A stretch of DNA of 64,000 nt from Spraguea lophii (lineage: Eukaryota; Microsporidia; Spragueidae), in NCBI GenBank assembly GCA_001887945.1, contig LDOQ01000212.1:124001-188000 (forward strand), written 5' to 3'. Both the position numbers and the translations under genes were made by a program. A model generated the notes under the pieces. The model saw only the letters and a program-made list of their open reading frames with translations, searched no databases and had not been told where the DNA came from. How positions within the stretch are numbered: position 1 is the first letter of the stretch; the number at the start of each line of letters is the position of its first letter. Of the stretch, positions 26,879-61,823 are shown one piece after another.

Positions 26879-27362
26879 GATCCGGTTAGCCCATTGGACG
26901 TGCTGTGGTAACAAAACCCCAAGCTTTGGAAGTTCGAATCCCGCATTCAAAAAATTTTTTTAAAAAAAAACAATAAAAGATAGTGGCGATGGAAAAAAAA
27001 GAAGCGTTAGGTTAAGAGCTCAACAACGTAACTTGACTATTCTTTACACAACAACTCAGTTATTACATTAAAAAATTCTATGACTGGTATAATTATAATC
27101 CTTGTATTGGTTTGTGATTTGACGAATATTATATCAAAAGGGGGATAGCAATCTCCTTAAGATTATGAGTGGGATAGCAATGCACACCATATACAAAATT
27201 TCAACATCTTCGAATATAAAGTAAGATGAAATTAATGTATATATGTTTCGAAACTAGTTAATAAGAAATTAAATATGCTTTAAGGACCAAAAACCATAGA
27301 CCGCAGTAGATTATAACAAGTTAAGAACCCTATATAAATAAAAATTTTGTTTAAAAAAATTA
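26879..27362 (+). mobile_element. tRNA-derived SINE-like retroposon, old full-length copy
   Basis: The tRNA-like head (26882-26950) has an A-box-like TTAGCCCATTGG and B box AGTTCGAATCC. The shared body follows with TTGGTTTGTGATTTGACGAAT, GCACACCATATACAAAATTTC and ATATATGTTTCGAAACTAGTT blocks, and the tail is TATAAATAAAAATTTTGTTTAAA. A 10-base direct repeat AAAAAAATTA flanks it (26869-26878 and 27353-27362) but merges with the A-rich tail, so it is weak. It is more diverged and AT-richer than the other copies. The head is not a working tRNA: stems do not pair. Confidence 0.85.
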
Positions 27363-27494
27363 AATAAAAACTTCATCTCCTTTAAAATAAAAATGATTTA
27401 AACGTTATTTTAAAATTAATTAATTAATTTTAATGCATAAATATTTTTGTATTTTCTATTATTCTTTTTTTGTTTACAGAAATTTAATTTTTTA

Positions 27495-27498
27495 CCCC
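27495..27498 (+). promoter_or_regulatory. CCCC core-promoter motif deciding a start
   Basis: CCCC six bases before the ATG at 27505. The frame's earlier ATG at 27433 lies upstream of it. Confidence 0.6.
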
Positions 27499-27504
27499 TC
27501 AATA

Positions 27505-29022
27505 ATGCATAATCAAGATACCGATAAAACAACAGAAACTTATAACAATGACTCAACAATACCTAATAATGATGAATCAGGTATTGGAAATATAAAAGAT
27601 GATAATATCTCTTATACAAACTTAAATAAAATAGAAGAGGATAATATAAATGAAGCAAACAATAATGAAAATAAGGAAAAAGACCCAAAAAATCATAATT
27701 CAAATAAAGAACAAATTAATAATAATCCAAATATCAAAACCTTTCTTAACAATGAGAGTAATATAAAATCTGAATATGAAAAAAATAAATTAAAAAGAAC
27801 AGAACTTTCTAAAAAGATTGAAGAATATAAAAAGTTGTTTAAACGTCTAAGACAAGCAGAATTATTGATAGATAAAAAATCACTTAGAAAAAAACTTAGT
27901 GCAGAAGAACAAAATTATAATAGGATTAAAACTGTAAAAAGATTAAGACTTTATTTTAATATAGAAAAGATAGAAAATAAAGATGAAGGGGTTGCTCCTA
28001 GCTTCAAATTAAATATTAACGGTAAGATAGTTAACGATTATAGTACTGAACCTTCTTTGAAAATGACACAATTTATAAACTCCCTTATAATATCCCCAGA
28101 GAATGGAGAATTTAAAAATAATAATAACAAATATTACATAGGTGAAAATATAATAGGAATAACAGAAGAAGAAAATAATACACCATTAGAATCTGAAAAT
28201 GTAAAAAGAAGAAAAGTAGCTAAAGAAACAGAAGAAAAAATATTTTTAGAAGAAATACATAAAATTTTTGAATGGAATAAACAAAAGAACATTTTAACAG
28301 GTAATCACTTTGAATTTGACACTTTTGAATTTAAGATTAATAACACTACCAACACTCTCCTAAAATGTTATTTTGAATTTGAAAATACCCAAGACCTTCA
28401 TAAATTATCACCCAAGCTTTCTTATCTTTTAAAAAGAAAAGTAGGAACAAAAACAGATATAATCATAGATATTTGGAAATATATAAAAACCACTAAACTC
28501 CCAATACAACAAATAGAAAATGATAAACGGGTTACATGCGACACTTTACTTAATTCCATATTCAATATTGATTCTTTCACCTACAAACAAATACCCATCC
28601 TCATAAACGATCATCTTCTCCCTTTAGATAATCTTATAATAGAATTACCATTGGATAATTATGAGCGTACAATAGACATAATATTAGAAATTGATGATTT
28701 ATATGAATTTCCAATTATTTATAAATCTAATGATTTACAATTATTAGAAAATAAAATAAATGAAATTAACGATGCTATCATAAGAACAGAAGAGAAAATA
28801 GATAATTTAAATAAATTTATCATCAATCCAATAGAATTCATAAATGGATGGGTACTTAATAATTCTAAAGATTTAATAAATGGATACGTAGAAGATAATG
28901 AAGTAGAAGAAAATACTACAGGTAGTATAAAAGCATATAATAATCAATTATTAGATTGTGAGTATTTTAAAAATCCAGTTGTACAAGAAGCTATATATTA
29001 TTTATTACAATCTTATAAATAA
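27505..29022 (+). CDS. RSC6: SWI/SNF or RSC complex subunit, Swp73/Rsc6 (BAF60) family
   Basis: A 505-aa protein. The first 75 residues are Asn/Asp/Glu-rich and disordered. A coiled coil (about 95-145) leads into VKRLRLYFNIEKI and SFKLNINGKIVND, matching the BAF60 block before the SWIB domain. The SWIB-like region (about 300-385) reads HKLSPKLSYLLKRKVGTKTDII then IDIWKYIKTTKLPIQ and CDTLLNSIFNIDSFTYKQIPILI, as in Swp73/Rsc6/SMARCD. This subunit is a core scaffold of ATP-dependent chromatin remodellers. Whether it belongs to SWI/SNF or RSC cannot be told. An Epl1-like gene lies 5 kb away. Confidence 0.82.
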   Translation: MHNQDTDKTTETYNNDSTIPNNDESGIGNIKDDNISYTNLNKIEEDNINEANNNENKEKDPKNHNSNKEQINNNPNIKTFLNNESNIKSEYEKNKLKRTELSKKIEEYKKLFKRLRQAELLIDKKSLRKKLSAEEQNYNRIKTVKRLRLYFNIEKIENKDEGVAPSFKLNINGKIVNDYSTEPSLKMTQFINSLIISPENGEFKNNNNKYYIGENIIGITEEENNTPLESENVKRRKVAKETEEKIFLEEIHKIFEWNKQKNILTGNHFEFDTFEFKINNTTNTLLKCYFEFENTQDLHKLSPKLSYLLKRKVGTKTDIIIDIWKYIKTTKLPIQQIENDKRVTCDTLLNSIFNIDSFTYKQIPILINDHLLPLDNLIIELPLDNYERTIDIILEIDDLYEFPIIYKSNDLQLLENKINEINDAIIRTEEKIDNLNKFIINPIEFINGWVLNNSKDLINGYVEDNEVEENTTGSIKAYNNQLLDCEYFKNPVVQEAIYYLLQSYK

Positions 29023-29523
29023 TAATAAGGAAATAAATGAATAGAAGGTATTTTAAATGTATATTTTATATTAAGAAAAATAATATAAAATTGATAATAA
29101 AAAGAATAGGACTTAAAAATAAATTTAAATAAATTATAATAAAAATTAAATACGATAACATTTATTATTTTTTTATATTTAATATATCTTTCGTTCTTTT
29201 ACAGTTTTATATGAAAAAGCCTGGAACTCAAACTCTAGAGGTGTGAACGTTAAAAGTGAGTAACAGTCTTAAGGAAATTTAAAGGATAAAAGATATTTAG
29301 TATTATCATTCTGTGTTTTGATTCTTATTATCTATGGGATATAATAATTGAAATATCCCGATAAATAGATAAATAACTTCCACATCCTCTAATGGAAGAA
29401 ACAAAAAAAGAAAGAAGGATATTGTAATAACAATCATCAATAATATCATATTGATTTTTTATTTAATGATATTATTCTACCATTTAAATATAGAAAATAA
29501 ATATTTTTGTTTAAAAATAACTT
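29023..29523. other. Intergenic with one small hairpin
   Basis: 500 bases between convergent genes. A perfect 7-bp inverted repeat GGGATAT/ATATCCC sits at 29336-29359 with a 10-base loop. It could be a terminator-like or chance hairpin. Nothing else was recognised. Confidence 0.4.
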
Positions 29524-31101
29524 TTAATGATTATCCCAATTACCTGTTGGCGGTCTTACTTGCATATCTTCTCCTTTGGATATTAAAATATCTTCTGTTA
29601 ATAGAACATTACATAGAATATCTATTGCATATAATGTAGCCTTTATCTTGGGTGTAAATATATCATAGATTTTATCTTTGTTGTTGGTATTAAATTCTCC
29701 AAAGGCTAGGGATAATTTATTGTAAACCATTTTTCTGATGTCTTTAAATTCTGCTGATCTTTCATTTAATAATTTACTTATTCTATTTTCAAAGATACCT
29801 GCACCTTCTGTTAATAGTATTTTATTCATATCATCTTCTTCATAAATATTTTTCTTTAAAACTCTTATTCCTTTGTCTATCATTCTTTCATATTCGTCAG
29901 TGTTGGCTTTCAAACTGTCTTTTAAAACTATTGTATGGATAGTATTATCACTGTTGTATGGTAATAATTGTGTATATAATCTTCCGCCTTCTCGATACAC
30001 TCTAACTCCTTTAATTCTTCCTAAATGTTCATCTCTTAATTCATTGAGTGTTAAACTAAGAGTACCACCTAACATTTTTCTTACTCTTCTAATATCAAAT
30101 TTACTTTGTACTTTGAATACCATAATATTTTTCTTATTGAAATAATCCAAATGTCTGGGTTCTGTTTCTCCTGAAACTATAACTAATCTAAGATCATCAT
30201 TGGATGCTATCTTATCTACTAATGATTTAATATCAGTACTTTCTTTTGTGGAGAAAGATTCTAAATCATCTGCATTTTGAAATAACAATGTTCCTTTGGT
30301 TTCAGTTCTTGAAATATCCAGAGGACAATTGTAAATAGCTGTTCTATATGGTTTATTTTCTATTTTTAATCCTTTTACTGTTCCTGCTGGTTCTCCATCA
30401 AATACCATACCTTCCATCAAATAACTATCTTTTAATACTCCAACACTAACTTTATTAATTCTTATATCATCTAAAAATTCTAGATCCTTACCATTACTTC
30501 TACTGATAGCCTCTACTAATAAATTTTCTAATGTTTCACTTTGCATAACACCTTTCAATATCTTGCTTAGAATTTTCTTATCTTTGTAATCCACTATTTC
30601 TTTGATTTTATAGTCATCACATTTTTCATATAATAATTGTCTTACTTCTCTTAAAATATCCACTAACTGAGTAATATTAAGTCCATCTAACACCAATTCT
30701 CTACTATAATTTAACAATCTACTGAATAATAATACCATATATCCACAACAATCACCATAAACATCCAATTCTTCAACCTTATCCTTTATTAATAACTGTA
30801 AGGGATCTACTAATTTTATATTATTAAGAATAACTGTTGGTAATGAAGATAAAATAATATTATTATAATTGTTAACCATAAGCTTGGTATATGTATTAAC
30901 CATTGGCCCAGATTCATTATATTCTTCAATATCCTTATTTTCTATAGAAAAACCTTCATCCTTTTTTAACCCTTCTCTATTGTAATATGATGTTTCTAAA
31001 GATTTACTGATTGAAAGAAGCTTACTGGTTTTGTTTATCAATTTGGTAGATGAGTGTGAAAGCTTAGAAGAAATAAGCGATGAATAAGAACTTCCAAACA
31101 T
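29524..31101 (-). CDS. CCT8: T-complex protein 1 subunit theta (CCT8)
   Basis: One of eight subunits of the cytosolic CCT/TRiC ring that folds actin and tubulin. It is assigned to theta by the apical-domain segment KKNIMVFKVQSKFDIRRVRKM, equivalent to NIMLVRLNSKWDLRRLCK of human CCT8, and by the C-terminal ending QVRPPTGNWDNH, like the theta tail with PKPP and W-D. The length of 525 aa is normal. The nucleotide site is unusual: where other CCT subunits read GDGT, this one has GDCCG (residues 116-120), and the preceding NDxATIL block is SLPTVIL. ATP binding by this subunit may be lost. CCCTTAAATACAT precedes the ATG. Confidence 0.88.
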   Translation of the reverse strand: MFGSSYSSLISSKLSHSSTKLINKTSKLLSISKSLETSYYNREGLKKDEGFSIENKDIEEYNESGPMVNTYTKLMVNNYNNIILSSLPTVILNNIKLVDPLQLLIKDKVEELDVYGDCCGYMVLLFSRLLNYSRELVLDGLNITQLVDILREVRQLLYEKCDDYKIKEIVDYKDKKILSKILKGVMQSETLENLLVEAISRSNGKDLEFLDDIRINKVSVGVLKDSYLMEGMVFDGEPAGTVKGLKIENKPYRTAIYNCPLDISRTETKGTLLFQNADDLESFSTKESTDIKSLVDKIASNDDLRLVIVSGETEPRHLDYFNKKNIMVFKVQSKFDIRRVRKMLGGTLSLTLNELRDEHLGRIKGVRVYREGGRLYTQLLPYNSDNTIHTIVLKDSLKANTDEYERMIDKGIRVLKKNIYEEDDMNKILLTEGAGIFENRISKLLNERSAEFKDIRKMVYNKLSLAFGEFNTNNKDKIYDIFTPKIKATLYAIDILCNVLLTEDILISKGEDMQVRPPTGNWDNH

Positions 31102-31410
31102 ATGTATTTAAGGGTTATAAAAATATTATTTTTATAAAGTTGCATTAACAAAGAAAGAAAAATAAAAGCAAAAAAGTTTTTTAAGGAAATTAATTTAAAA
31201 ATATCCTACATTTTAATGAAATAACACAAAGATAAAATATACAGAGAATACAAGATATTATTTTATAAAAAAAAGAAAAAATATATTATATTTAGTTTAA
31301 ATAAAATATTCTCATATTTAATAGTATTTATATAACACAGAAATGAAATTTATAAAATTTAAACAAGTTAAGATACATGACAGTATTATTTGTTCTTATT
31401 CAGATATAAT
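31102..31410. other. Intergenic, AT-rich
   Basis: Short spacer between two minus-strand genes. Poly-A/T tracts only. Confidence 0.5.
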
Positions 31411-32628
31411 TTACTTTCTATATAAATCATAGAGTATAGTTATTGTTTTTTTAAAATCATACATTTCTTCTTTTATCTCATCTTTCCCTTTTCTTTCTAA
31501 GAAAAATTCGTCTTGAATAACAAGAAGAAAATTAAGAACTAAATCTGCCATAGAATTACTATTAAAATCTTTTATAGGTTTTAATAAGCCACTATCACTT
31601 TTATTACTGTCATTATTTGTATTATCTTCTTTGCAACTTATACGATCTTCGGTAGTTTCATTGGATTTTAAAGATTCTAACGATTGTTCTTTTTCTGTAT
31701 TATCATCTTCATTACCTTTATTTTTTTCTTTATTAACATTGCTAAACAATCTTTTTAATTTTTCTTTTAGTCCTTCAGGAATATTTTCTTTAAGCAACAT
31801 TTCATTTTTAATTGTGATAAAATCTTCTTTCCAATGCGTTTTATCTTTTATTGATCTTTTTGAATTTTTTATTTTTCTTATTAATTTTTGGTATTCGAAT
31901 GAAGTGGTTTTTTCTTCTTTTTCCTTTTTTTCTGTCTGCTTACCTTTTTTCCTTGAAAAATAATTATGTTCATCAATTGTATCCATATAATCGTCTAACT
32001 CCTTTTCTTCGGCAGTCATTTTCATATAATATTTTTTTGTTTGTTTCTTTTTCGTTAAACCATTAAACAAAATATGTGGTTGAATATTGAAAATTGATGG
32101 TTGTGGATATTTTGTGTTATTCTGTTTAATTTGTTTTTTTATCCCAATAATCTTTTCTTTTTTTATTTCTACATTAGGTTTAAACTTTTTCTTATTTATA
32201 TTTTCTATATTAGATTTGTAATAATCCAATATTTTTGTATTCTCCATAGAATTATCGTTTATTTTATAATATTTATTTTCAATTACCGTATCTAACTTAT
32301 TGATAATTCTATATCTTTCATTAACCTTCCTTTTGTATATTTCTATTAACTTTTCATATCTTTTATCTTCACAATACCTAATAATATCATTATAACCATT
32401 ATATTGTGCCTCTTCTTTTAAAAACTCATAATATACAGAATATTTATCTGGATATGCCATAGAAGATCTAGAAGCTATATACATTATAATTTCTATTTCT
32501 TTTAATTTTTCAGCAGAAAAAAAATTATTTGTCCCATAAAATTTATATTTATCATTTTCATTAAATATTTGCATTGCAAATGCTAATACTAATTTATCTG
32601 CTGTTGTCAAAAGTTTGTATTCATCCAT
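31411..32628 (-). CDS. Charged nuclear-type protein, possibly Brd8/Bdc1-like
   Basis: 405 aa. The N-terminus (about 5-115) reads LTTADKLVLAFAMQ, then YPDKYSVYYEFLKEE, then a long helix with VNERYRIINKLDTVIE. This order resembles the N-terminal domain of Brd8/Bdc1, a NuA4 subunit. The centre is Lys/Glu-rich. The C-terminal 50 residues (SMADLVLNFLLVIQDEFF) recall the last helices of the Brd8 bromodomain, but no complete bromodomain is present. ACCCTTGT precedes the ATG. The Epl1-like NuA4 scaffold is encoded 1.4 kb away. The assignment is speculative; the gene itself is solid. Confidence 0.6.
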   Translation of the reverse strand: MDEYKLLTTADKLVLAFAMQIFNENDKYKFYGTNNFFSAEKLKEIEIIMYIASRSSMAYPDKYSVYYEFLKEEAQYNGYNDIIRYCEDKRYEKLIEIYKRKVNERYRIINKLDTVIENKYYKINDNSMENTKILDYYKSNIENINKKKFKPNVEIKKEKIIGIKKQIKQNNTKYPQPSIFNIQPHILFNGLTKKKQTKKYYMKMTAEEKELDDYMDTIDEHNYFSRKKGKQTEKKEKEEKTTSFEYQKLIRKIKNSKRSIKDKTHWKEDFITIKNEMLLKENIPEGLKEKLKRLFSNVNKEKNKGNEDDNTEKEQSLESLKSNETTEDRISCKEDNTNNDSNKSDSGLLKPIKDFNSNSMADLVLNFLLVIQDEFFLERKGKDEIKEEMYDFKKTITILYDLYRK

Positions 32629-33246: not shown

Positions 33247-33270
33247 GATAGGAGTATTATTTTTATTATT

Positions 33271-33346
33271 TAGTAACCAAAGGTTATAAATTATGATAGG
33301 TAGCAACCAACCAGGAAATTTCGATAAATAAAAGTTCCATTAAAAG
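33271..33346 (+). mobile_element. Retroposon 3' fragment
   Basis: TAACCAAAGGTTATAAATTA, then GTAGCAACCAACCAGGAAATT and CGATAAATAAAAGTTCCATT followed by A-rich sequence. This is the last ~75 bases of the family, well preserved. 5' parts are missing, consistent with truncation on insertion or later decay. Confidence 0.78.
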
Positions 33347-33624: not shown

Positions 33625-33700
33625 ACCATTTACAAACCTCTGAAATATAAAGTCAGATAAGGTTAATACATACATGTAGCGAAAACAATTAATATAATTT
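33625..33700 (+). mobile_element. Retroposon middle fragment
   Basis: Contains AAACCTCTGAAATATAAAG, then AAGGTTAATACATACATGTA and GCGAAAACAATTAATATAATT. These parallel the CTCTGGAGCATAAGG, ATTAATGCATATATGTAGCG and AAACCAGTTAGTACAAG blocks of intact copies. No tail remains. Confidence 0.5.
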
Positions 33701-34027
33701 TTATATATCAAGAAGCCGATGATTGTTATCTATAACAAAATACAATGGGTAAGAATTCATTAACTATAATTAAAACATTATTATTAAAAATATTATTATT
33801 TTTCTTAGTTCCTCTATCATGGGATTAAGGTCTTAATATTTTTTATATAAATATATATGATAGTAGTATTAATTATATTTTAATTTTAATAAAGGATTTC
33901 TATTAACAAACTTTTATTTACTCTTAAATTTATTTATTAACCTTTCTTGTTATTTATTTTTTAATTTAAATATATATTTCCAAGTAATAAGAGAATTACA
34001 TATTAAAATAAATAAAATTATTTTTTA

Positions 34028-36541: not shown

Positions 36542-36613
36542 CACGAACGAAGGGATTCGAACCCCCACCCTTGAGATCCGAAGTCACACGCGCTACCATT
36601 GCGCCACGTCCGT
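36542..36613 (-). tRNA. tRNA-Arg (anticodon UCG)
   Basis: A 72-nt cloverleaf without intron. The acceptor ACGGACG pairs with CGTTCGT (one G-T), discriminator G. The D arm is GCGC with loop AATGGTA. The anticodon loop CTTCGGA gives UCG, reading CGA arginine codons. The T arm GGGGG/CCCTT holds loop TTCGAAT. The anticodon stem TGTGA/TCTCA has one T-T mismatch in the middle. Internal A and B boxes are intact, which separates it from the retroposon heads. No T-run longer than four was noted directly 3'. Confidence 0.85.
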
Positions 36614-46497: not shown

Positions 46498-46746
46498 AGG
46501 TGTAACTTTTCTTCTCTTTAAATACTTTTAAAAGGTTCTAGAAATTAATATATCATAAACTATTATTATGTATTACAAATGAATTTTATTAAAAACATAT
46601 AATATGTATTTAATATTAATACCATGTCATCTATTAAATCAATATTATAAATATACATATATATTTTAATTTATCATTTTCCAACAATATTTTTATTTTT
46701 TTCGAAAAAAATATAAAACTTTAAAAAAATTTCGTTTTTTTTGACC

Positions 46747-49700
46747 ATGTCACTTATTTTCTCTCCCGAGAACGTATCGTTTGATTTTTACAAAAATGAT
46801 GATATAGAGAAAATTTCAGTTGCTGAGATAAAATCTATTCTTGCATTTGATTCTTTTGGTCATCCTCTTCCCGATGGCTTGTATGATCTACGGATGGGTC
46901 CTCTTTCCCCAGAAAAAAGCTGTGAAACATGCAAATTATCATATTTCAATTGTCAAGGACATTTTGGAAGAATAAATCTTGGTGTATATGTTTATAATCC
47001 ATTATGCTTTGCACAGCTCTATAAGCTGATAAGAGCTTCATGTATAAAATGTAATAGATTTAATGCAACGGATGAGCAAAAAATATTTATACAAAAAGAT
47101 TTACTTGCAATAAAATATACAGAAGAAAGTAAAATTAACGCAGATAACTTGCAAATACATCATAACTTAACAAATGAATTTTTTAAAGGCTGTCACACTA
47201 GAAAGATATGCATACATTGTAAAACTCGTTATCCTAAATATATTAAAGGAAGGAATTTGAGGATTCTTAAAGAAATTGATGGTACACCAATGTTTATAAG
47301 ACCAGATGAGTTGGTTGAAAATCTTAAAGGTTTGTTTGAAACAGAAGTAGAATTATGTCATGCTATATTTGGTACAAATGATCATTTAATGTTTTTTGTA
47401 AAAAATATAATTGTACAACCAAATAAATTCAGACCAGTTAGTTATAATGATGGTAAGCTTTATGAAAATAATCGAAATATGATTCTTACTTCAATAATCA
47501 AAGAAACAATAAAAGTTCAAAGAGAAGCTAGCGATGAAAATATAGGAAATTTACAAAGGTTGGTTTATTTTTATTTTGATTCGTCAAAAAATGAAAATAA
47601 AAACATTCCTGGAATGAAGCAGATTTTAGAAAAGAAAGAAGGTCTATTCAGACAGAATATGATGGGAAAGAGAGTAAACTATGCCGCTAGATCTGTTATC
47701 TCCCCAGATCCTAATCTTGAACCTCGAGAAGTCGGAGTTCCTCAGATATTTGCAGAAACATTGACTTTCCCAGAGCAGGTTACACCTTATAACTTAGAGA
47801 AGCTAAGACAACTCGTATTGAATGGATCGAAATATCCAGGATGTGTTTATATAGAAGAAAATGGTGTTTTAAGAAATATCAAATTTATATCAGATAAAGA
47901 CAGAATAATTGCTGCAAACCAATTGTTACAAGGAAATAAGCGTGTATGGAGACATTTACAAAATGGTGATTTTGTCCTATTAAACAGACAGCCAACTCTT
48001 CATAAACCTAGTATTATGGGTCATATAGTTAGAGTACTACCCGAAGAAAAAACCATTAGGTTTAATTATGCAAACTGCAGCTCATACAATGCAGATTTTG
48101 ATGGGGACGAGATGAACATACATTTTGTTCAAAGCCATATTTCAAGAGCTGAAGTTCAGAATGTTTGTTTGAATGATAATAACTATCTTGTATCAACTGA
48201 TGGTAATCCAATACGTGGTCTTATTCAGGATTATATAGTTGTTTGTAGTAGAATGACTTTAAAAAATACGTTTTATAGTGAAGAACAATACAAAGCAATC
48301 GTTAACAACGGATTGAGCTGCGGGATAGGTACAGATAGATTAAAAAAACTTTTAAAACGAAAAATTATCTTGGAAAAACCGTGTATAAAAACACCCGTTA
48401 AAATTTATTCTGGTAAACAAATAATTTCCACAATTCTTAAAAATTTAGGATTAAAAATAAATATTAAAGAAGTAAATAGATTGAATAAACAATTGATTAA
48501 TGAATATGAGGATGAAAGAATAGTACAAATAGTTGATGGAACATTGGTTAGTGGTGTTTTAGACAAAAGCCAAATAGGACCATCGGCCTTCGGATTAGTA
48601 CATGCATGTGGAGAAGTATATGGTTATGAAGTCTGTAATGATTTATTTACTGTATTTGGTAGAATTTTAAACAAAGAAATCATGTATAATGGGTTTACCA
48701 CAGGTATAGATGATTTACTCCTTGATCAAGAAGCGGAGAAAGAAAGAAACAGAATTATATTAGAGGGTATTGAAGAAGGTAAAAATATTGCACGAAAACA
48801 AATGACGGATATGTATTTCAGAGATCAAGAAAAAGTTAAAGAAATTGATATGATGACAATGCGAAAAATGAATGAAGTCACAACTAAAATTTTAAATAAT
48901 TCATTGGTAACTGGACAGAAGAAAAAATACCCAAATAACGGTATGGGTCTTATTATTAATTCAGGTGCTAGAGGTTCTATTGTTAACTTAAGTCAAATTT
49001 CCGCTTTATTAGGACAGCAAGAATTAGAAGGTAGAAGAGTTCCATTAATGATATCTGGTGCTTCTTTACCATGTTTCAAACCTTATGATCCAAATCCTAT
49101 CACTGGAGGTTTTATTTTCCATAGATTTTTAACCGGACTTCAACCCGCAGAATATTTTTTCCATTGTATGGCAGGAAGAGAAGGTTTAATGGATACTGCT
49201 GTTAAAACGCACGTTTCTGGATATTTACAAAGATCATTAATTAAACATTTAGAGAGTCTTAAAGTAGAGTATGATCATACTGTTAGATCTGATAAAAGAG
49301 TTATTTCATTTAAATACGGTGAGGATGGATTGGATCCTCGAAAAGAAAAATATTTGAAAAGAATGGATTTCCTAGAAGACAACAAAAAAGAAATTGCAAA
49401 GGGCCAAGACGTTGATATATATTCATATAAAAAAGAAAGAGCATATATAGAACCCGGCGAACCAGTGGGTATTATTGCAGCACAATCTATAGGAGAACCT
49501 TCAACACAAATGACTTTGAACACCTTCCATTTGGCTGGTGTTGGTGGTGGAAATGTAACACTTGGTATGCCTAGATTAAAAGAAATTGTTATGGTAGCAT
49601 CCAAAGAAATTAAAAATCCTTATGTAAAAGTGAATATTAATGAAAACTTTTTAAATAATAAAGATTTTATAAAATTAGAAAAGGTAATGTTATCTGAGTG

Positions 49701-50697
49701 CATAGAACAATTTAAAATTACACAAAATATTGTTAGAGTAGACGGATTATCAAAAGAAATTAAAATAGATTTTTATGCTAAAACGGAAATTAAGAGAGTT
49801 ATGAAGGTAATTAAACGCAAGTTATTAAAAAAGTTGATAGAAGAATCTAATAAATTAAACAAATCCAAATCTGTTATTGCGGTCTCTGCAAAAAAAGAAG
49901 AAACCAGAGAAATGGAAATAAAAGAAGAGAAAATCGAAAGTTCTGTTGAAGATTCATCATCAGATAATGAAGAGCTTAACAAAGATGATAGTTCAACAAA
50001 CAATCCTGATTTAGAAGAGATAGAAGAAGAAATAATAGTAGATGATATACTTGAGATGCCTTCTAGAATCGATACCACAGAAAAAGTAACTTTGAAGGAT
50101 AATATAATAACCATAACATTATACACTCCAGTTGAAACAGAATTACCATTTTATCAGATTTTAGAACAGTTGGTAGCAGAAACTAAAATCGAAGAACATG
50201 GAGGAATATCAGCCACATCAATAGAAAAAGATAACATAATTTTATATGGAGGAAAATTAGATGATTTATTTTTTAAATTGGATACACCAATACCTCTTAC
50301 TTTTGATCAATGCATAGATATATATTCAGCGTATACAAATGATATTTATAAAACGTTGACGATTTTGGGTGTAGAAGCTGCTAGAAATGTAATAGTAGAA
50401 GAAATAAACGGGGTATTTAGCGTATACGGTATAAAGATTAATAAAAGACATATAATACTTATTGCTGATTATATGACTAGAGATGGTGGATTTTCAGCAT
50501 TTAGTAGAACTGGTATGCTTAGTACTGGGTCTGCATTACAAAAAATATCGTTTGAGAGTTGTTTTTCCAGGCTAAGAGAAAGTGCTATATTCCATGATAT
50601 CGATTTTTTAGAAAATCCGTCTGCGCGTATTATTTTAGGACAACCAATAAAACATGGAACAGGATCTTTTGAATTAATTCATAAATACGATGAATAG
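46747..50697 (+). CDS. RPA190: RNA polymerase I largest subunit (A190)
   Basis: 1316 aa starting at the ATG at 46747; the frame's TTG six bases earlier is not needed. The clamp zinc sites are CETCKLSYFNCQGHFG (near 55) and CIKC/CIHCKTRYP. The catalytic loop NADFDGDEMNIHF is near residue 448 with all three Mg-binding aspartates. The trigger-loop region with GEPVGIIAAQSIGEPSTQM lies near 915. FDAFG-type DSFGHPLPDGLYD at the N-terminus and the acidic insert around 1065-1100 place it with Pol I rather than Pol II or III. It transcribes 35S-type rDNA. A probable A49 partner is encoded at 7491. It is about 20% shorter than yeast A190. Confidence 0.95.
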   Translation: MSLIFSPENVSFDFYKNDDIEKISVAEIKSILAFDSFGHPLPDGLYDLRMGPLSPEKSCETCKLSYFNCQGHFGRINLGVYVYNPLCFAQLYKLIRASCIKCNRFNATDEQKIFIQKDLLAIKYTEESKINADNLQIHHNLTNEFFKGCHTRKICIHCKTRYPKYIKGRNLRILKEIDGTPMFIRPDELVENLKGLFETEVELCHAIFGTNDHLMFFVKNIIVQPNKFRPVSYNDGKLYENNRNMILTSIIKETIKVQREASDENIGNLQRLVYFYFDSSKNENKNIPGMKQILEKKEGLFRQNMMGKRVNYAARSVISPDPNLEPREVGVPQIFAETLTFPEQVTPYNLEKLRQLVLNGSKYPGCVYIEENGVLRNIKFISDKDRIIAANQLLQGNKRVWRHLQNGDFVLLNRQPTLHKPSIMGHIVRVLPEEKTIRFNYANCSSYNADFDGDEMNIHFVQSHISRAEVQNVCLNDNNYLVSTDGNPIRGLIQDYIVVCSRMTLKNTFYSEEQYKAIVNNGLSCGIGTDRLKKLLKRKIILEKPCIKTPVKIYSGKQIISTILKNLGLKINIKEVNRLNKQLINEYEDERIVQIVDGTLVSGVLDKSQIGPSAFGLVHACGEVYGYEVCNDLFTVFGRILNKEIMYNGFTTGIDDLLLDQEAEKERNRIILEGIEEGKNIARKQMTDMYFRDQEKVKEIDMMTMRKMNEVTTKILNNSLVTGQKKKYPNNGMGLIINSGARGSIVNLSQISALLGQQELEGRRVPLMISGASLPCFKPYDPNPITGGFIFHRFLTGLQPAEYFFHCMAGREGLMDTAVKTHVSGYLQRSLIKHLESLKVEYDHTVRSDKRVISFKYGEDGLDPRKEKYLKRMDFLEDNKKEIAKGQDVDIYSYKKERAYIEPGEPVGIIAAQSIGEPSTQMTLNTFHLAGVGGGNVTLGMPRLKEIVMVASKEIKNPYVKVNINENFLNNKDFIKLEKVMLSECIEQFKITQNIVRVDGLSKEIKIDFYAKTEIKRVMKVIKRKLLKKLIEESNKLNKSKSVIAVSAKKEETREMEIKEEKIESSVEDSSSDNEELNKDDSSTNNPDLEEIEEEIIVDDILEMPSRIDTTEKVTLKDNIITITLYTPVETELPFYQILEQLVAETKIEEHGGISATSIEKDNIILYGGKLDDLFFKLDTPIPLTFDQCIDIYSAYTNDIYKTLTILGVEAARNVIVEEINGVFSVYGIKINKRHIILIADYMTRDGGFSAFSRTGMLSTGSALQKISFESCFSRLRESAIFHDIDFLENPSARIILGQPIKHGTGSFELIHKYDE

Positions 50698-52044: not shown

Positions 52045-52172
52045 ATATAAAAATATTTTTACTAAATTCTTTTATTTTTATAAAATTATTGTTTTGGTTT
52101 TTTTTGTTTAGAATAAAATTTTATAGAAATAATAAAATTTCTTAAATATTCTTCTATACAGCTTTAATTTTA
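52045..52172. other. Spacer with left target-site duplication
   Basis: Short AT-rich spacer. AGCTTTAATTTTA at 52160-52172 is the left copy of a target-site duplication around the retroposon. Confidence 0.8.
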
Positions 52173-52576
52173 ATAAAAGAATAATAATAAACGGAGAAGA
52201 GAAGAAAAAGGTTGTTGAGTGGGTGAGGTTTCGATAGCGCAGCATAGCTGTGCCTTGTATGACGGCCCCGTTACTAGATTAAAGTAGTGTTCAGCTGATG
52301 TAGTTGCAATCCCTGTATTGATTTGTGACTCGGCCAATACTATGCAACGAAAGAGGCTGGGAATTCCTTAAGAGCTGGAAGTGGGGGCGGCGACGCGCAC
52401 CAGACGCAAAATCCTAACACTCTGGAGCATAAGGTAAGATGAGATTAATGCATATATGTAGCGAAACCAGTTAGTACAAGTTTAATTTCGCTCGAGGAAC
52501 CGAAGGTCTCAGACCATGGTAGGCCGCAACCGGCCAGGAAGCTTTGATAAATAAAAGTTTCATTCGTAAAAAAAAA
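52173..52576 (+). mobile_element. SINE-like retroposon, 5'-truncated, with 13-bp target-site duplication
   Basis: Flanked by a perfect 13-base direct repeat AGCTTTAATTTTA (52160-52172 and 52577-52589). The tRNA-like head is missing and the element starts inside the A-rich linker. The body is the least decayed and most GC-rich of all copies (for example GATAGCGCAGCATAGC, GGGGGCGGCGACGCGC, CAACCGGCCAGGAAG). It ends GATAAATAAAAGTTTCATT followed by CGT and a run of A. 5' truncation plus a target-site duplication plus an A tail is the footprint of target-primed reverse transcription. It sits 198 bases upstream of the eL32 start. Confidence 0.93.
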
Positions 52577-53855: not shown

Positions 53856-53887
53856 TTCAATAAAAGTTCTTTTATGAAAAAAATGTA

Positions 53888-54253: not shown

Positions 54254-54302
54254 GGGTTATGATTAAGTAAATAAAAAATATTATAAATATATAATGAAAA
54301 AT

Positions 54303-55367: not shown

Positions 55368-56174
55368 AACTTTTCTTTTTTATATCTTTTTTTGGAATAT
55401 CAAAATTTCTATATCTTAATTAATCTTATTATATAAGTTATACAGCGTTTTAAAAATTATGTAAATATTAATAGAAGTTATAAAAATCGTGTTTAACCTT
55501 CTAGATGGAGAATATGTATTATAAAACTAAAAAAATATAAGATTTAATTTTTTGTAAGAAAATTCTTTTGAAAAATATGAAATAAGACGAGAATATAATT
55601 ATTATGAAAATATATACAATGCGGTATAAGTAAATGTATTATATAAACCCATGGATGATACTAGATAAGGATTGGAAAAAGTCGTTGAAGAAATGAATTC
55701 AATTTTATTTAAAAATTTTTTTTTATTTTTTCATTTGCTTTAAAAAAAATAGAATTTAACCAGAACATAAATAATATAAAAAATATTCCAAAAATTTACA
55801 TGTTTCATTTAAACTTAGATATTAATTATTTTTATATAAAATTTATTATCAAGATATATGGTGATTGTACCACTCCGTAATAAGAAGCAATTGATTTCTT
55901 AAACATTTGTTTTGTAGTAAACATCTTAGTTATGTATATACATTAATTTTATCTTACAAAGTGATAAGATTTCTCTTATTGTTTTCATCTCAGTTTCAAT
56001 CCAATTTCAACTGTTTATTATTATAATATTAACTAAACCATTAATCAATATAAGTATTTTGATCACATTAGGTAAATTCTGTTTTTATTAGCAGAGTATG
56101 TTGTTGTATACATTCTAACTAATTTAATCAATCAAACCGCTTTATGTAAAATGGAATCGATAACCTAGAAGAAT
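55368..56174. other. Intergenic with retroposon relic
   Basis: Upstream of an unknown gene and next to an intact retroposon. It holds a probable decayed minus-strand copy at about 55915-55990. The last bases (56161-56174) are the left target-site duplication of the following element. Confidence 0.5.
55915..55990 (-). mobile_element. Probable decayed retroposon fragment
   Basis: On the plus strand TATGTATATACATTAATTTT and ATCTTACAAAGTGATAAGAT follow the order of ATATGCATTAATCTCATCTT and ACCTTATACTCC in the inverted element. No tail or head. Weak. Confidence 0.4.
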
Positions 56175-56656
56175 ATTTTTTTTAATGAAACTTTTATTTA
56201 TCAAAGTTTCCTGGCCGTTTACGACCTATCGTGGTCTGAGACTTTTGGTTCCTAAAGTACATCTAAACTTGTACTAATTAGTTTCACCGTAGATATGCAT
56301 TAATCTCGTCTTACTTATATTCCAGAGCGGCAGAGTTTTGCGTATGGTGCACGTCGCTGTCCCCCTCCCATCTTTTCAGAGATTCTAACTTTTTTCTTGA
56401 CATAATATTGGCTGAGTCACAAATTAATACGGTGATTGCACTTACACCAGCTAAACACTACTATAATCTAATAGTGAAACCGTCATACAAGGCACAGTTA
56501 ATGTTGCGCTATCGAACCCTCCCCCCACTCAACAACCTTTTCCCTTGTCTTCTACCTTTTATTATTCTTTTTTTGAAAATTCTTCTGGATGAGGGATTCG
56601 AACCCGTGAGACTTGAGATTTGATTACCATCCCACGACCACTGGACCAAGTGACCT
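56175..56656 (-). mobile_element. tRNA-derived SINE-like retroposon, full length
   Basis: Minus strand. The tRNA-like head occupies about 56580-56656, with A-box-like TGGTCCAGTGG and B box GGGTTCGAATCCC. The linker and shared body follow, and the tail is GATAAATAAAAGTTTCATT then A-rich. An imperfect 14-base duplication flanks it (TAACCTAGAAGAAT at 56161 and TACCCTAGAGGTAT at 56657, 11 of 14 equal), so it inserted long enough ago for both flanks to mutate. The head's stems are partly mispaired, and it is not a functional tRNA. A 71-codon frame inside is chance. Confidence 0.9.
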
Positions 56657-57142
56657 TACCCTAGAGGTATGATCACTCTAAGTAAGCAATGATATTAGGT
56701 TAAACGTTATACTGGAAAGAAACACCTTAACATCCTCGTTTTACGATACCCGAAGCTTATTATCAATGCAATAAATAAAGGGTTTTCGCTTACGGCAGAT
56801 AAACGAAAAAGTCGATAAAAAAGTTCATTAAACCAAAATCTAGTCAGTATATTTGGGACTTTTAACTCGATAACTTTAATGTTAATTACCATATAATATC
56901 TCAAATATATTTGAGTTTTATTTGTCCTAAACATTTTTTTCTAACAATAAAATTTAAAATTATTTTATTTCTACATCTTGGATTGTCTTTTAAACATCTT
57001 TTTCTTCATATTCCAAATATGCTCATGTTATTCTAAATTTACAACTCTGATAAATTAGTTGGTATTTTATTATAAGAAACATTCTATATTATTTTATAGA
57101 AAATTAAAAAAATATAAAAATTTTTTTAAAGTTTGTATTTAT
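56657..57142. other. Intergenic with a doubtful small frame
   Basis: A 75-codon minus-strand frame (56707-56934) and a short plus-strand frame reading KRYTGKKHLNILVLRYPK overlap here. Base composition is less AT-rich than elsewhere. I cannot recognise either. It may be a gene relic into which the adjacent retroposon landed. Confidence 0.35.
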
Positions 57143-58723
57143 TTATGATAATATTTTTCTTAAAACGTTTTTAAATTCTATTTTAGGTACGATAAAAGAA
57201 TTTGAATTATTTTCTAATTTTTCATATTTATTTCCAATTTTTCTCAAGCTTCTATCTTTGCTATAAATTAATGAAGATTCTTCTTCATAATGATCTAATA
57301 TAATGAGAAAGACCTTTTCTTTCTTCATATAACTAAAAACTTCCGTAAAAAGATTATAAAAAATACTTAACATGACAAGAACATTACATTTTTTGAAATC
57401 TCTAAGATCTTTTACAACTAAAATCCTATGTTCTTTTATATTTTTAATTCTTTTTATATTAAGTTTTACAAAATTTATTAACTTGAAATAAAAATCTCTA
57501 CTTTTAATGATTGATTCTTTGTTTATTTTTTGTACAGACACCAAAGCTTTACAATAATCGTTATGCGCTAAAAAATATTCTAACATATAATATGTTTCTA
57601 ACCCTGTAACACTATATTCATAATCTATCTTTTTAATAATTTTTTCTTTTTTGAAAAAAATATCTTCTATAATATCCTTACAATCAATACTTAATCTACA
57701 AAAATCATCACCTGCAGCTTTTCTAGAGATACCTACTCTAGCTAAATATTCACATATCTTATTAACCTGATTTTCTAAAGTATAATTAAAAAGCTTTCTT
57801 CGGACCAAAAATTCAATGTTTGAGCTTATACTATTGTATAACACTGAATTATAAATATACATGATATCAATTCTTTGTGTAATTTTCAAACCAAAATATT
57901 CCTCTCTCCTCTTTATCTCTTCAACAACTTCGTCAAAAATATATTTACAATTTTTGCATAATATTTTTTTATCATAAAAAATTACAAATGGCCAAAGAGT
58001 CTTTGTGGTAAAATAATTGATACCCTTCAGCAAATAGAACATTGAAAATAAATAATTTTCTTTTATACATTCGCAATATTGATTATTTTTTATAATAAGT
58101 TTATCATTATCATCTAACAATACATCATCCAATGTCTCTTTAGCTGATTCATATTCTTCTAAATTTCTCCCCCTATTTTCCAACTCTTCCGTTACACATT
58201 TTTCTTTTTTATTTTCTTTAATGCTACTAATCAGCGTATCGTTAATACTGCTTTTTAAAGTTTCTAAAGAATAATCATTTGTATTAGTAGAATTTAAAAT
58301 ATCCAATTTACAATCTAAACTGTCTTTTCTAAAATTTTCATCTTTATTATTATTCTCATTTATTTTCGAACCATTATCTTCAATGCTACTTTCATTTTCT
58401 ATTATAACGCTATCATTTCTTCTATTTTCTTTATCTTCATTATTTTTAACTATTTTATTTTTTCTTTCTCTCTTTTTTCTACCACATTCCATCACCACAT
58501 ATTTATCTCCTATAGGTTTTTTATTTACAAAAAGAACTACATCCTCCTCTTCTATATTATTTTTAACATCTACTTCATATTTTATACATTCTCTCTTAAA
58601 TAAAGAAGTATAAATATCCACAACCAATATACTTAATATATCCTTTGATGCACATATCTTTATTTTGTTGTATTTTTTAATCCATAAGAGAATTTTTCTG
58701 GAATCACTTACATCTAATATCAT
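57143..58723 (-). CDS. CDC45: DNA replication initiation protein Cdc45
   Basis: 526 aa. The N-terminus (WIKKYNKIKICASKDILSILVVDIY) parallels the start of Cdc45, where a RecJ-like fold begins. A Ser/Asn/Asp-rich insert (about 85-215) is low complexity. The diagnostic central part is IMYIYNSVLYNSISSNIEFLVRR and EYLARVGISRKAAGDDFCRL followed by SIDCKDIIEDIF, equivalent to the LYDSMMHSSYL and EFLAEMGLPLKQCKQKFSFM blocks. Cdc45 joins MCM and GINS in the CMG helicase. TTAACCG precedes the ATG rather than CCC. The assignment rests on block order, by eye. Confidence 0.78.
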   Translation of the reverse strand: MILDVSDSRKILLWIKKYNKIKICASKDILSILVVDIYTSLFKRECIKYEVDVKNNIEEEDVVLFVNKKPIGDKYVVMECGRKKRERKNKIVKNNEDKENRRNDSVIIENESSIEDNGSKINENNNKDENFRKDSLDCKLDILNSTNTNDYSLETLKSSINDTLISSIKENKKEKCVTEELENRGRNLEEYESAKETLDDVLLDDNDKLIIKNNQYCECIKENYLFSMFYLLKGINYFTTKTLWPFVIFYDKKILCKNCKYIFDEVVEEIKRREEYFGLKITQRIDIMYIYNSVLYNSISSNIEFLVRRKLFNYTLENQVNKICEYLARVGISRKAAGDDFCRLSIDCKDIIEDIFFKKEKIIKKIDYEYSVTGLETYYMLEYFLAHNDYCKALVSVQKINKESIIKSRDFYFKLINFVKLNIKRIKNIKEHRILVVKDLRDFKKCNVLVMLSIFYNLFTEVFSYMKKEKVFLIILDHYEEESSLIYSKDRSLRKIGNKYEKLENNSNSFIVPKIEFKNVLRKILS

Positions 58724-59637
58724 CGGTTAATTTATTTTTAAAAAAACAAATATTTATAAAAGATGGAGGTAATTTTATAGAAAGCTAAAAACTAAAATAT
58801 AAGAATAGATAAATAGTATTTTTCATGTAATAATTTATATAAGAAAAGTCAAATAAAAATTTTTGTCTATCAAATATTTAGGATTTTATTTTATTAAGAA
58901 AAAAGACATTATTATTATGAATTTTATTTTATTATGAAAAAAAGCAAAGATAAATGTTTTGTCTATAAAAAAAATAATTATTTATAAAGGAAACATTTTA
59001 AAAACTCACATAAAAGCATCTATACCTATTTTAAAAGTTTACTTATAATTAGACAACGATTATCATTTAAATTAGAAATACAGATTTAAATTGGAATATG
59101 GTAAAGTATATGTGTATATGATAAATATGTAATAATTAATTTAATAAAACATAAAAACAAAATGAATAATTAAATAATATTTACATATCCCGTTGATAAT
59201 AACAATCTAAAGCACCTTTATAAAAAATAGAAAAAAAAACTAAAAAGCTTCATGGAAAACGTAAGTACGAAGCGGTTTGATGATCATGATTAAACTCACT
59301 AAAATAGTTATTTATAAACTTTATGATAATTTATTTAATTTTAAGAACATTTATATTTGTGAAAATGGTGTCATACTCTTAAATGATTTTATGATTTATT
59401 TATCTTTACTTAGATTTAAATAAATCTTGTGGTGTCGATTCTTTATTAGTTCGAATATTTAAAACACTGCTGAATTTCTATTGGTTACTTTTTATTAACA
59501 AATTTTATTGGATGTTGCGATAACCAATCATTCAGAACAGTATTAAGCATTAAAAATAATATTTGATTATATGATGGATCTTTGTTTTTAGTTGAATTGT
59601 TTTTTAATATTATAAATTTTTTATGTTGTTACTGATA
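58724..59637. other. Intergenic, AT-rich
   Basis: 0.9 kb without gene signals. Its end (59624-59637) is the left target-site duplication of the next retroposon. Confidence 0.55.
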
Positions 59638-60117
59638 TATATTTTTTATTAATAAGACTTTTTATTTGTTATAAGTCTCCTGGTTGGTTATAGCTTATCG
59701 TGGTTTAAGGCCTTTGGTTCCTAAGACCATTTAAACTTATATTAACAGGTTGCACCACAAATATGTATTAATCACATTTTACCTTATACTCTAAAATGCT
59801 GGAATTTTGTGTATGGTGCATGCCACCCCTCTCAATTTTTTGAAATTTCTTAATTTCTTTCATGACATAGTATTAACTGAGTTACAAATCAATACAGAGA
59901 ATGCAATTACACCGGTTAAACACTACTTTAATTTAATAACGGGGTCGGCATACAAGGCACAACTAATGTTACGCTATCGAACCCACACTCACTCAACAAT
60001 CTTTTTCTTCTTCTTTTATACCTTTTATTATTTGTTTGTTGAAAATTCTTCAGGATGAGGGATTCGAAGCCATTACCTTTGGGATTCACCTCATAACCGC
60101 CGAGCCAAGCGGGTTTT
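59638..60117 (-). mobile_element. tRNA-derived SINE-like retroposon, full length, perfect 14-bp target-site duplication
   Basis: Minus strand, 480 bases. Perfect 14-base direct repeats TGTTGTTACTGATA flank it at 59624-59637 and 60118-60131. The head (about 60045-60112) has an A-box-like TTGGCTCGGCGG and a B box GCTTCGAATCC, and the anticodon-loop position reads TCCC. An A-rich linker is followed by the family body (TGGGTTCGATAGCG, CTTGTATGCCGACCCCG, GTATTGATTTGTAACTCAG). The tail is CAAATAAAAAGTCTTATT. The 5' end of the element is exactly at the tRNA-like head, so it is likely complete. Its head end is 90 bases upstream of the RRM gene. Confidence 0.94.
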
Positions 60118-60203
60118 TGTTGTTACTGATAAATTAGTTAGTTGGCTTTTGTTTTTATTTGCATAAAATAAAATTATTTTTATATTTTTTAAAAATATTC
60201 AAT

Positions 60204-60206
60204 CCC
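60204..60206 (+). promoter_or_regulatory. CCC core-promoter motif deciding the RRM gene start
   Basis: CCC abuts the ATG at 60207. The longer frame from 60159 adds only a hydrophobic stub. Confidence 0.6.
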
Positions 60207-61265
60207 ATGGATGAGCATGTGAACTATTTAGATTTTCGTTCCATTGTTATATACAACATAAAAACGGATATAAGTCTATCTCAGATATTAGAGTTATTCA
60301 CGTGGGTCGATATAGAGAGCTATACTTATGTAGATAATATTGCAAGGATAAATTTCTTTAGTTACTATTTTTTGTATAAAGCATATGAAAATTTAAAACA
60401 GAAGGATTTGGGATTCTTAGGTGATATCTGTATAAAATTTCTTAAAACTAAAGAATTGGAAAAGAGTGTGTATTATTCATATCTCTGTGGTGGCACCAGA
60501 GGTATATTTATTACTCAAATAGAAGAGGATGATGAACAAAAATTAATAAAGTATGCCAATGAATACGGATCAGTAGAACAAATAAAATATTTTAAGGATA
60601 GGAAAACTATTTATGTTATTTACGAAGAATATTGCACTGCTGTACAATTTTTAAACTTTCTATTGAACTCTCCCATTTATTTCTCAAAAAAATGTGGGTT
60701 TGTTAAGCAACAGAAAGACGAAGAACACAATCTAAACGAGATTCTGCATTCTGGACAAAGAACAGTGTACATAGGCAATTTACAATCAGAAATAGATGTC
60801 AAAGATATTTTGGATCAAATTAAAATAGGAATGTTGCATAATATAAAAATTATCCGTGATAAAAAAATCGGATTCATAACATTTTTAGATTGTATAACAG
60901 CCAAAATATTCCTTGATCATTGTGAAGAATATCCTCTAGTAATTAAAGGACATAAACTAAAAATAATGTGGGGAAAAATTACAACAATTAGCTTATCAGT
61001 AGTATTGGCAATATTCAAAGGATCAACAAGAGGGCTAAAAATACATAAAGCTTTGGATAAAGAGGAATTGGCGGCTTATGGAGAAATAGAACATTATGAG
61101 GTTGCAGAGAATACAACTGTATTTTATTTTTCTATTGTAGATGCAATGCAAGCATATAGTGAGATAAACAAAAAAAATGTAATGGTGGATTATATTGAAG
61201 ATAGATGTGATGGTGATGCATTGGAGAAATATATCTTAGGATTAAAAGTATTTCAAGAACTGTAA
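60207..61265 (+). CDS. MRN1: Multi-RRM RNA-binding protein, fungal Mrn1/Nrd1 type
   Basis: 352 aa. The best-preserved RRM (about 190-265) reads GQRTVYIGNLQSEIDVKDIL, IGFITFLDCITAKIFLDHCE and ends VIKGHKLKIMWGKI. This matches the second or third RRM of Mrn1/Nrd1, where RTVYLGNLP is followed by a GWGK/WGK strand. Two weaker RRM-like units lie before it (SIVIYNIKTDISLSQILELF at the N-terminus, GIFITQIEEDDEQKL near 110) and one after. These proteins bind RNA and tune translation or mRNA decay of developmental genes. The start follows CCC directly. Confidence 0.78.
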   Translation: MDEHVNYLDFRSIVIYNIKTDISLSQILELFTWVDIESYTYVDNIARINFFSYYFLYKAYENLKQKDLGFLGDICIKFLKTKELEKSVYYSYLCGGTRGIFITQIEEDDEQKLIKYANEYGSVEQIKYFKDRKTIYVIYEEYCTAVQFLNFLLNSPIYFSKKCGFVKQQKDEEHNLNEILHSGQRTVYIGNLQSEIDVKDILDQIKIGMLHNIKIIRDKKIGFITFLDCITAKIFLDHCEEYPLVIKGHKLKIMWGKITTISLSVVLAIFKGSTRGLKIHKALDKEELAAYGEIEHYEVAENTTVFYFSIVDAMQAYSEINKKNVMVDYIEDRCDGDALEKYILGLKVFQEL

Positions 61266-61337
61266 AACATAAAATGGTTTCAATAAAATATTATTATTTC
61301 ATGATAATTGGCATTTTTCCAACAATTTATTATTTTT

Positions 61338-61823
61338 ATATAGAATTTTATTGGCTGAATGTTCGTGGGATAGTAGCCAAACCCCAAGCCTGGCGGGTTC
61401 GAATCCCTCTCTTGAATAATTTCAAAAAAAAATAATAAAAAGTAGAAGAGAATGGTTGTTGAATGGGTAAGTGTTCGGTAGCGTGACATTAGTTGTGTCT
61501 TGTATGACGAGTCCATTACCAAATTAAAGTAATGGTTAGCTGATATAATTGCAATCCCTATATTAATTTGTGAATTGACCAATACTATGTCAAGAAGAAG
61601 ATTAGGATTTTTTAAAAACTCAGAAGAGTGCCAGCATGCGCGATGCGCATAATTCCAGCATTTTAAAACATAAGATAGGATTAGATTAATGCATATTTGT
61701 AGAAAAACCAGTTAATACAAGTTTAAATGGCTTTTAGGAACCAAAATCTATAGATCACAGCAAGCAACACCCAGCCAGAAAACTCGATAAATAAAAGTTT
61801 CATTTGAAAAAAATTTAAAAATC
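61338..61823 (+). mobile_element. tRNA-derived SINE-like retroposon, full length
   Basis: Plus strand. The head (about 61345-61415) has an A-box-like TTGGCTGAATG and B box GGGTTCGAATCCC. The linker AAAAAAAAATAATAAAAAG leads to the shared body (GTTGTTGAATGGGTAAG, TGTATGACGAGTCCATT, TAATGCATATTTGTAG), and the tail is GATAAATAAAAGTTTCATT. A 10-base repeat TATTATTTTT flanks it (61328-61337 and 61824-61833), weak because of AT content. It lies 72 bases after the stop of the RRM gene. A 100-codon antisense frame inside is chance. Confidence 0.9.

Follow-up and report, generated by a model that had tools for sequence, protein, structure and literature searches.

The window analysed here, a stretch of 64,000 nucleotides (nt) from contig LDOQ01000212.1 of the Spraguea lophii assembly GCA_001887945.1 (positions 124,001 to 188,000, forward strand), contains five long copies of an interspersed repeat. 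The repeat very probably represents a family of transfer RNA (tRNA)-related short interspersed elements (SINEs), recently active in a Spraguea-type microsporidian and mobilised by a long interspersed element (LINE). The element is about 480 nt long and consists of a tRNA-like head with promoter boxes for RNA polymerase III (Pol III), an A-rich linker, a body of about 350 nt, a fixed 3' end and a short A tail. An ordinary mechanism appears to operate in an unusual host: the new SINE family is well supported and the LINE partner is likely. The unusual part, if it reflects targeting, is a bias of some copies towards the 3' ends of tRNA genes.

The sequence-only reading had described a repeat family inside the window, and a search of the whole assembly (5.27 Mb in 73 contigs) shows that it extends throughout the genome. 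The 19-nt 3' signature of the element, with at most one mismatch, occurs 235 times (116 + 119), and its reversed control is absent (0 + 0). An 18-nt signature of the 5' end occurs 99 times (37 + 62; control 0). The window copies are named here after the positions at which they were first noted. When 40 of 434 candidates were scored, the copy at 52173 was found at no fewer than 40 other places with 93-99% identity over about 400-460 nt, together with 5 weaker pieces. The copy at 56175, which has a head, was found at 39 or more other places with 80-81% identity over about 465-480 nt, together with 6 lesser pieces. Among 100 tails listed, all of them exact, 51 have a 5' start (at most one mismatch) 475-489 nt away and three are cut by contig starts, so that about half of the listed copies are truncated or cut, or have diverged in their 5' part. 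The family is estimated to occupy roughly 1.5-2% of the assembly. In its size and abundance it has the character of a SINE (about 100-700 nt, non-coding, interspersed and present in many copies).

The age of the family was assessed from 40 full-length best matches outside the window, of which one 85%-type copy was set aside. The remaining 39 have a mean pairwise divergence of 1.8% and a mean nearest-neighbour divergence of 0.8%, with some pairs identical; these values describe a selected young group and not the whole family. The 39 copies have a GC content of 46%. The window as a whole has 24%, and three of its older copies are intermediate at 34-40%. Such a fall with age is expected if GC-rich young copies decay towards the composition of the host. 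The window copies range from 97% down to 67% identity to a young copy, suggesting activity over a long time, and at two loci (L069 and L098) young SINEs sit within older ones.

The copies carry the marks of retroposition. Flanking repeats with a score of at least 10 were found for 37 of 47 copies, whereas 18 of 466 control pairs, each combining flanks of two different copies, reached that score. Exact target-site duplications of variable length, 12-17 nt, bracket 34 of the 39 young full-length copies. The retroposon interpretation had been staked on duplications being present at copies elsewhere in the genome, and there they are. Between the duplication and the TCCCGCC motif, 14 of the 34 cases have AG and 10 have G, so that the element begins no more than two nucleotides from AG-TCCCGCC; on the 3' side CATT-CGT-A(n) is the usual sequence. 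A T precedes the duplication in 24 of the 34, and the duplication itself opens with A-rich sequence. Preference for T|A is a trait of LINEs with an apurinic/apyrimidinic endonuclease (APE), and the junctions observed here resemble it. The duplications, the A tails, the 5' truncation of some copies and the LINE-like 3' end described below all support the LINE-type mobilisation that had initially been proposed on general grounds.

A LINE resident in the assembly is the likely partner, as judged by sequence comparison. The reverse transcriptase (RT) domain RVT_1 matches nine places. Loci L021, L022 and L095/L023, with several open frames, were by eye taken to be Ty3/gypsy-like, and L025 and L028 were presumed from their motifs to be telomerase RT; both groups were rejected as the partner. 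The L025 frame (C2:65028-68276) is large, rich in asparagine and carries RT motifs. None of six LINE proteins matched L026 or L027. The places that appear by eye to be of LINE type are L029, at the end of contig C72, and L024, which is decayed. The C72 frame is cut by the contig end and matches Exo_endo_phos_2 and RVT_1 (each with E 0.0016, both below the Pfam cut-offs). Among the matches of its RT part are LINE-1 ORF2 protein chains (E 1.2e-9 to 2.2e-9), with 8c8j, 'RNA-directed DNA polymerase', as the top row (E 7.6e-10). In a protein database the best match of the LINE proteins has 31% identity and is followed by elements of Smittium culicis, with no clade singled out. Two observations join the C72 frame to a C-terminal zinc-knuckle part. 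At one locus on contig C1 an RT fragment is followed by the C-terminal end within about 400 nt on one strand, and an ORF1-like frame at L102 shares 459 nt at 96% identity with the stretch that precedes the C72 endonuclease (L100). L102 (C21:482-3586), near a contig start, contains, head to tail, a LINE C-terminal part, a second one with a 3' untranslated region (UTR) ending in A's, a short RT fragment and the ORF1-like frame.

The C-terminal part of the LINE is present at 11 distinct places (13 rows). Two copies, at the two ends of contig C63, are 98.5% identical over 935 nt, which indicates that the LINE is young too. The LINE places at both ends of C63 and on C11 lie 266-267 nt from a contig end, suggesting that LINE bodies are too alike to assemble there. 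Contigs break inside LINE sequence at both ends of C63 and on C11, C61 and C72 (L107-L110, L100).

The 3' region of the SINE is shared with this LINE. In L102 the UTR directly behind the open reading frame (ORF) matches SINE positions 401-455 at 46 of 55 nucleotides (E 3e-12), and at 8 of the 11 ORF-end places the UTR shares 40-68 nt with the 3' region of the SINE at 78-88% identity. About 110 nt further on, the LINE terminates in a TAAATAAA-type end, like that of the SINE, followed by A's. The A-rich tail and the 3' region common with a partner LINE that are typical of SINEs are therefore both found. Hairpins are possible in the shared region, where the pairs are kept in 76.7% of alignment cells, compared with 19-46% in slid versions; the link between LINE and SINE is nevertheless put forward here as one of sequence similarity, and the hairpins as candidates.

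The head appears to be related to tRNA. Its A box, TGGCCCAGTGG, begins at element position 8 and its B box, GGTTCGAATCC, at position 52, which is the tRNA register. A profile of the head reaches 4 bits or more in 12 of 28 distinct tRNAs and in none of 840 shuffled ones, mostly through the B-box half, and a 98-nt colinear match runs across a tRNA-Trp gene and its flank (E 6e-4). The global alignment score between head and tRNA, 58.3, exceeds all 300 shuffles (55.3). No single parent is singled out: in pairwise comparison with 22 distinct tRNAs, Lys(CUU) and Arg(UCG) are in a near tie globally and Arg is ahead locally, and two tRNAs that are by eye Ser (L120 and L121) score highest with the profile. 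An exact stretch of the head was searched for in viral contigs and gave no match.

These features suggest the following life cycle. Pol III would be recruited by the A and B boxes of the head and would start at, or close to, the AG usually found in front of TCCCGCC. There is one TTTT, at element position 78, which would have to be inefficient as a terminator here if Pol III reads through. The RNA of about 480 nt would end in a region and a short A tail like the 3' UTR of the resident, putatively APE-type LINE, which is envisaged to comprise ORF1, an endonuclease with reverse transcriptase, and a zinc knuckle. The LINE protein, acting in trans, may bind the tail of the SINE, nick AT-rich DNA and prime cDNA synthesis there (target-primed reverse transcription). 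The outcome would be duplications of 12-17 nt and occasional 5' truncation.

Several observations weigh against a tRNA-related, LINE-mobilised SINE. ARAGORN calls none of the window copies as a tRNA, and the Rfam tRNA model has no match to the head of one copy (L061) at E up to 10, a threshold at which two weak transfer-messenger RNA fragments are all that Rfam reports. When the B box is masked, similarity to tRNA falls within chance, both globally (37.0; shuffle mean 31.6, maximum 43.9) and locally (27; shuffle maximum 32), and even the unmasked local score of 43 lies below the shuffle maximum of 45. Five of the 39 young copies lack an exact duplication of at least 8 nt. Three of the 11 LINE places have no long match to the SINE: C1 joins only by alignment, C34 has a 30-nt match of the terminal type only, and C27 has none beyond 22 AT-rich nt. 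The 3' UTR of the LINE holds about 110 nt that are absent from the SINE, so the two 3' regions do not fully agree. In an alignment of 14 rows the shared hairpins do not covary beyond the level of shuffles, 117 of 500 of which reach the score, and they fold with unremarkable energy (z -0.3 to -1.9). Finally, no complete LINE was seen, the pieces being at contig ends or decayed. The tRNA derivation proposed at the outset is accordingly upheld in part: the boxes in register and the profile speak for it, and the lack of an Rfam or ARAGORN call and of a parent tRNA speaks against it. The possibility that the element might match a known rRNA or tRNA operon is not borne out: no Rfam family matches it in the window at the gathering score, the sole window match being an ordinary tRNA-Arg at 36542.

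The same observations can be read as a head that is tRNA-like by convergence, with promoter boxes of other ancestry, on an otherwise identical LINE-mobilised SINE. The missing Rfam match, the chance-level similarity beyond the B box and the absence of a single parent would fit this. It is rather improbable in view of the tRNA register of the boxes, the profile result with real and shuffled tRNAs and the colinear match over tRNA-Trp. Far less credible is a non-autonomous DNA element, a miniature inverted-repeat transposable element or a Helitron derivative moved by a transposase. The element is short, non-coding, multi-copy and inserted in AT-rich targets, and DNA transposon families are entered for S. 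lophii in the table of Parisot et al., as far as its available part goes (PMC4202319). However, the A tail varies in length, the duplications vary between 12 and 17 nt, 5' truncation occurs and the 3' end is LINE-like; no terminal inverted repeats were noticed in the copies read, although no dedicated search for them was made. A similarly slight probability attaches to a non-autonomous element of the long terminal repeat (LTR) type, derived from a small-RNA gene like Cassandra, Helenus and Ajax as described in the available text of PMC10886601, and moved by Ty3/gypsy-like elements. Open frames that look Ty3/gypsy-like are indeed present (L021, L022, L095). Integrases leave short duplications of constant length, and those found here are long and variable. 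The A-tailed, LINE-like 3' end also disagrees with an LTR-type element and leaves a LINE-mobilised SINE as the preferred interpretation.

Old SINE copies were encountered behind tRNA genes. Of 57 tRNA loci, 37 were examined, the 30 best-scoring and the 7 weakest, with selection independent of SINE content. At five of them a SINE copy starts 8-22 nt downstream of the tRNA in the same orientation, the spacings being 8, 11, 16, 17 and 22 nt for Ala (L044), Asn (L036), Leu (L059), a weak tRNA match (L125) and Lys (L031), respectively. The order in all five is the T-run of the tRNA and then the SINE. L125 (C52:13825-13902) scores 41 bits as a tRNA and carries an insert; by eye it is a tRNA-Tyr with an intron, and ARAGORN does not call it. 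The tRNAs and the spacers differ, which argues for separate events and not for copies of one tRNA-SINE unit. Within 25 nt of the 37 loci there is no SINE in the opposite orientation and none upstream; nine further SINE pieces lie at greater distance. Outside this count, a decayed tRNA-Lys-like sequence at L034 is followed by a SINE in the same arrangement.

The number of such associations expected by chance is 0.07 (P about 1e-8), or 0.28 (P about 1e-5) if only a quarter of the genome holds copies, with the 8-22-nt interval having been chosen after the data were seen. A genome-wide search pattern that joins a B box of the tRNA type to a following A box of the SINE type recovered three of the five cases and one unrelated match (control 0); it gave no further case at the other 20 tRNAs, and it misses decayed ones (L031, L125). 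The 99 5' signatures are not enriched near tRNAs, with 2 of 57 tRNAs having one within 200 nt where about 1 is expected. This count neither supports nor excludes targeting, because by estimate about one case would be expected at the rate seen. Concentration of most copies in a fixed window beside tRNA genes, as in the TRE elements, was not found; the bias concerns a minority.

It is possible, with somewhat less than an even chance, that the LINE/SINE pair prefers, or once preferred, the 3' boundary of tRNA genes, inserting 8-22 nt behind them in the same orientation and after the Pol III T-run. The association might instead be due to survivorship, which can be given an even chance: insertion would be random between genes, and old copies would persist where they do no harm. 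All five copies are indeed old or intermediate (68-89% identical to a young copy), the 5' signatures give a count near expectation, and the duplications at the five sites are decayed, that at L044 (TATTTTT) alone being suggestive. Survivorship does not, however, predict a single orientation and a single spacing, as seen in five copies in the same orientation, none in the opposite orientation downstream and none within 25 nt upstream. If targeting is true, it would constitute a tRNA-3'-targeting non-LTR system outside the dictyostelids, with a SINE as cargo, evolved independently in a compact genome, and would add another independent case of mobile elements landing at Pol III genes in such genomes.

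The copies inside the window (Table 1) were delineated with a profile built from 43 copies, which gave no match at E up to 10 in ten dinucleotide-shuffled windows. It recovers all five long copies. Because the copies at 56175, 59638 and 61338 had contributed to the profile, the E-values are independent for 52173 and 26879 only. The 3' signature GATAAATAAAAGTTTCATT, with at most three mismatches, has seven window matches compared with 0.76 expected from shuffles. A common architecture had been ascribed to all five copies. Four have the head, and the copy at 52173 begins in the A-rich linker at element position ~88; it is 97.5% identical over 406 nt to a full-length copy. The copies at 56175 and 59638 proved to be on the minus strand. 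The duplication of the 56175 copy is decayed (about 11/14, by eye), and for 26879 the flanking duplication is a low-complexity candidate only. At least four decayed copies had been counted in addition. Three pieces are significant, and those at 11102-11130 (E 2.9) and 18381-18497 (E 0.49) and a 3-mismatch signature match at 18829 are not. No ORF of 150 or more amino acids overlaps any of the five long copies. Short tandem duplications outside the SINE families occur at 7344-7553 (98% over 99 nt at spacing 111) and 6854-6983 (72% over 65 nt).

Table 1. SINE copies, remnants and target-site duplications in the window
Feature	Position	Strand	Basis and remarks
Oldest long SINE copy: head, body, 3' end, A-rich tail	26880..27360	+	read sequence; profile 26882-27348, E 6e-51
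Young SINE copy, 5'-truncated, no tRNA-like head	52174..52576	+	profile 52167-52564, E 2e-148
Left target-site duplication of 52174 copy, AGCTTTAATTTTAA	52160..52173	+	perfect, 14/14 nt, by eye and scored
Right target-site duplication of 52174 copy, AGCTTTAATTTTAA	52577..52590	+	
SINE copy with head, 81% identical to a young copy	56176..56655	-	profile 56650-56184, E 1.3e-130
SINE copy with head, 75% identical over blastn-aligned part	59637..60117	-	profile 60113-59653, E 5.3e-106
Left target-site duplication of 59637 copy, ATCAGTAACAACA	60118..60130	-	13/13, by eye
Right target-site duplication of 59637 copy, ATCAGTAACAACA	59624..59636	-	by eye
SINE copy with head, 74% identical	61338..61816	+	profile 61352-61804, E 4.7e-109
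Left duplication of 61338 copy	61324..61337	+	13/14 identical to right one
Right duplication of 61338 copy	61820..61833	+	read sequence, scored
Decayed 3' remnant	33270..33341	+	profile E 2.5e-10
Decayed internal remnant	33637..33719	+	profile E 3.9e-6
Decayed 3' remnant	23917..23974	+	profile E 0.0032

The window also encodes a protein (46741-50697) with the domains of an RNA polymerase largest subunit. It is 100% identical, with 100% coverage, to the RNA polymerase I largest subunit (RPA1) of Spraguea lophii 42_110; other named microsporidia are listed at 37-54% identity, the highest only over part of the length. This single protein agrees with the microsporidian origin first surmised and indicates that the host is probably S. 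lophii or very close to it. As far as the available parts of the sources go, the genome paper on S. lophii describes four non-LTR retrotransposons as transcribed (PMC3749934), the survey of microsporidian transposons by Parisot et al. gives one LINE family and 0 SINE occurrences for S. lophii (PMC4202319), and a repeat table for Nosema bombycis assigns 0.18% of the genome to SINEs (PMC3614468). The available text of PMC12543289 and PMC6416283 contains nothing on microsporidian SINEs. No characterised microsporidian SINE was found in the open-access papers searched, a search that did not extend to Repbase, Dfam, supplements or subscription papers, and to that extent the suspicion that the family is undescribed stands.

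Microsporidia are a textbook case of genome reduction. As the present family shows, great compactness of a parasite genome does not preclude an active SINE. A young SINE whose 3' end can be recognised at least 235 times in some 5 Mb, together with a matching LINE, implies that non-LTR retrotransposition is active or was so very recently. The near-identical insertions could serve as markers for strain typing of this fish parasite. The SINE probably explains some breaks in the assembly, as a contig starts no more than 500 nt from 10 of the 99 5' signatures. Furthermore, the recognition of a SINE tail by a LINE could be studied in this compact LINE/SINE pair.

Among fungi, tRNA-related SINEs exist in Magnaporthe, Fusarium and powdery mildews, which are other lineages; the likeness is one of kind. 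The closest general class is that of tRNA-derived SINEs with the 3' end of a partner LINE (PMC7245038 and PMC3747384). Its members share with the present family the 5' Pol III boxes, a body without known relatives, a LINE-like 3' region, an A tail, target-site duplications and a high copy number. The present family differs from them in its microsporidian host with an assembly of ~5 Mb, in a bipartite LINE similarity that omits ~110 nt, and in having no identifiable parent tRNA. The sole other mention of SINEs met for a microsporidian genome, in the part of the N. bombycis report consulted (PMC3614468), is a one-line class figure without family or structure, and is comparable by description only. 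As for the tRNA genes, TRE3 of dictyostelids is, according to the available text of PMC5006619 and PMC5911963, an autonomous element found 40-150 nt downstream of tRNAs, in the same orientation (PMC5911963), whereas here a SINE lies 8-22 nt downstream of a minority of tRNAs and old copies only are involved. The interval is nearly equal to that of Skipper-2 of Dictyostelium, which inserts 8-23 nt downstream of tRNA genes, with 4 of 8 copies in this range in the part of PMC5006619 available; Skipper-2, however, is an LTR retrotransposon with an integrase and uses another mechanism (PMC5006619).

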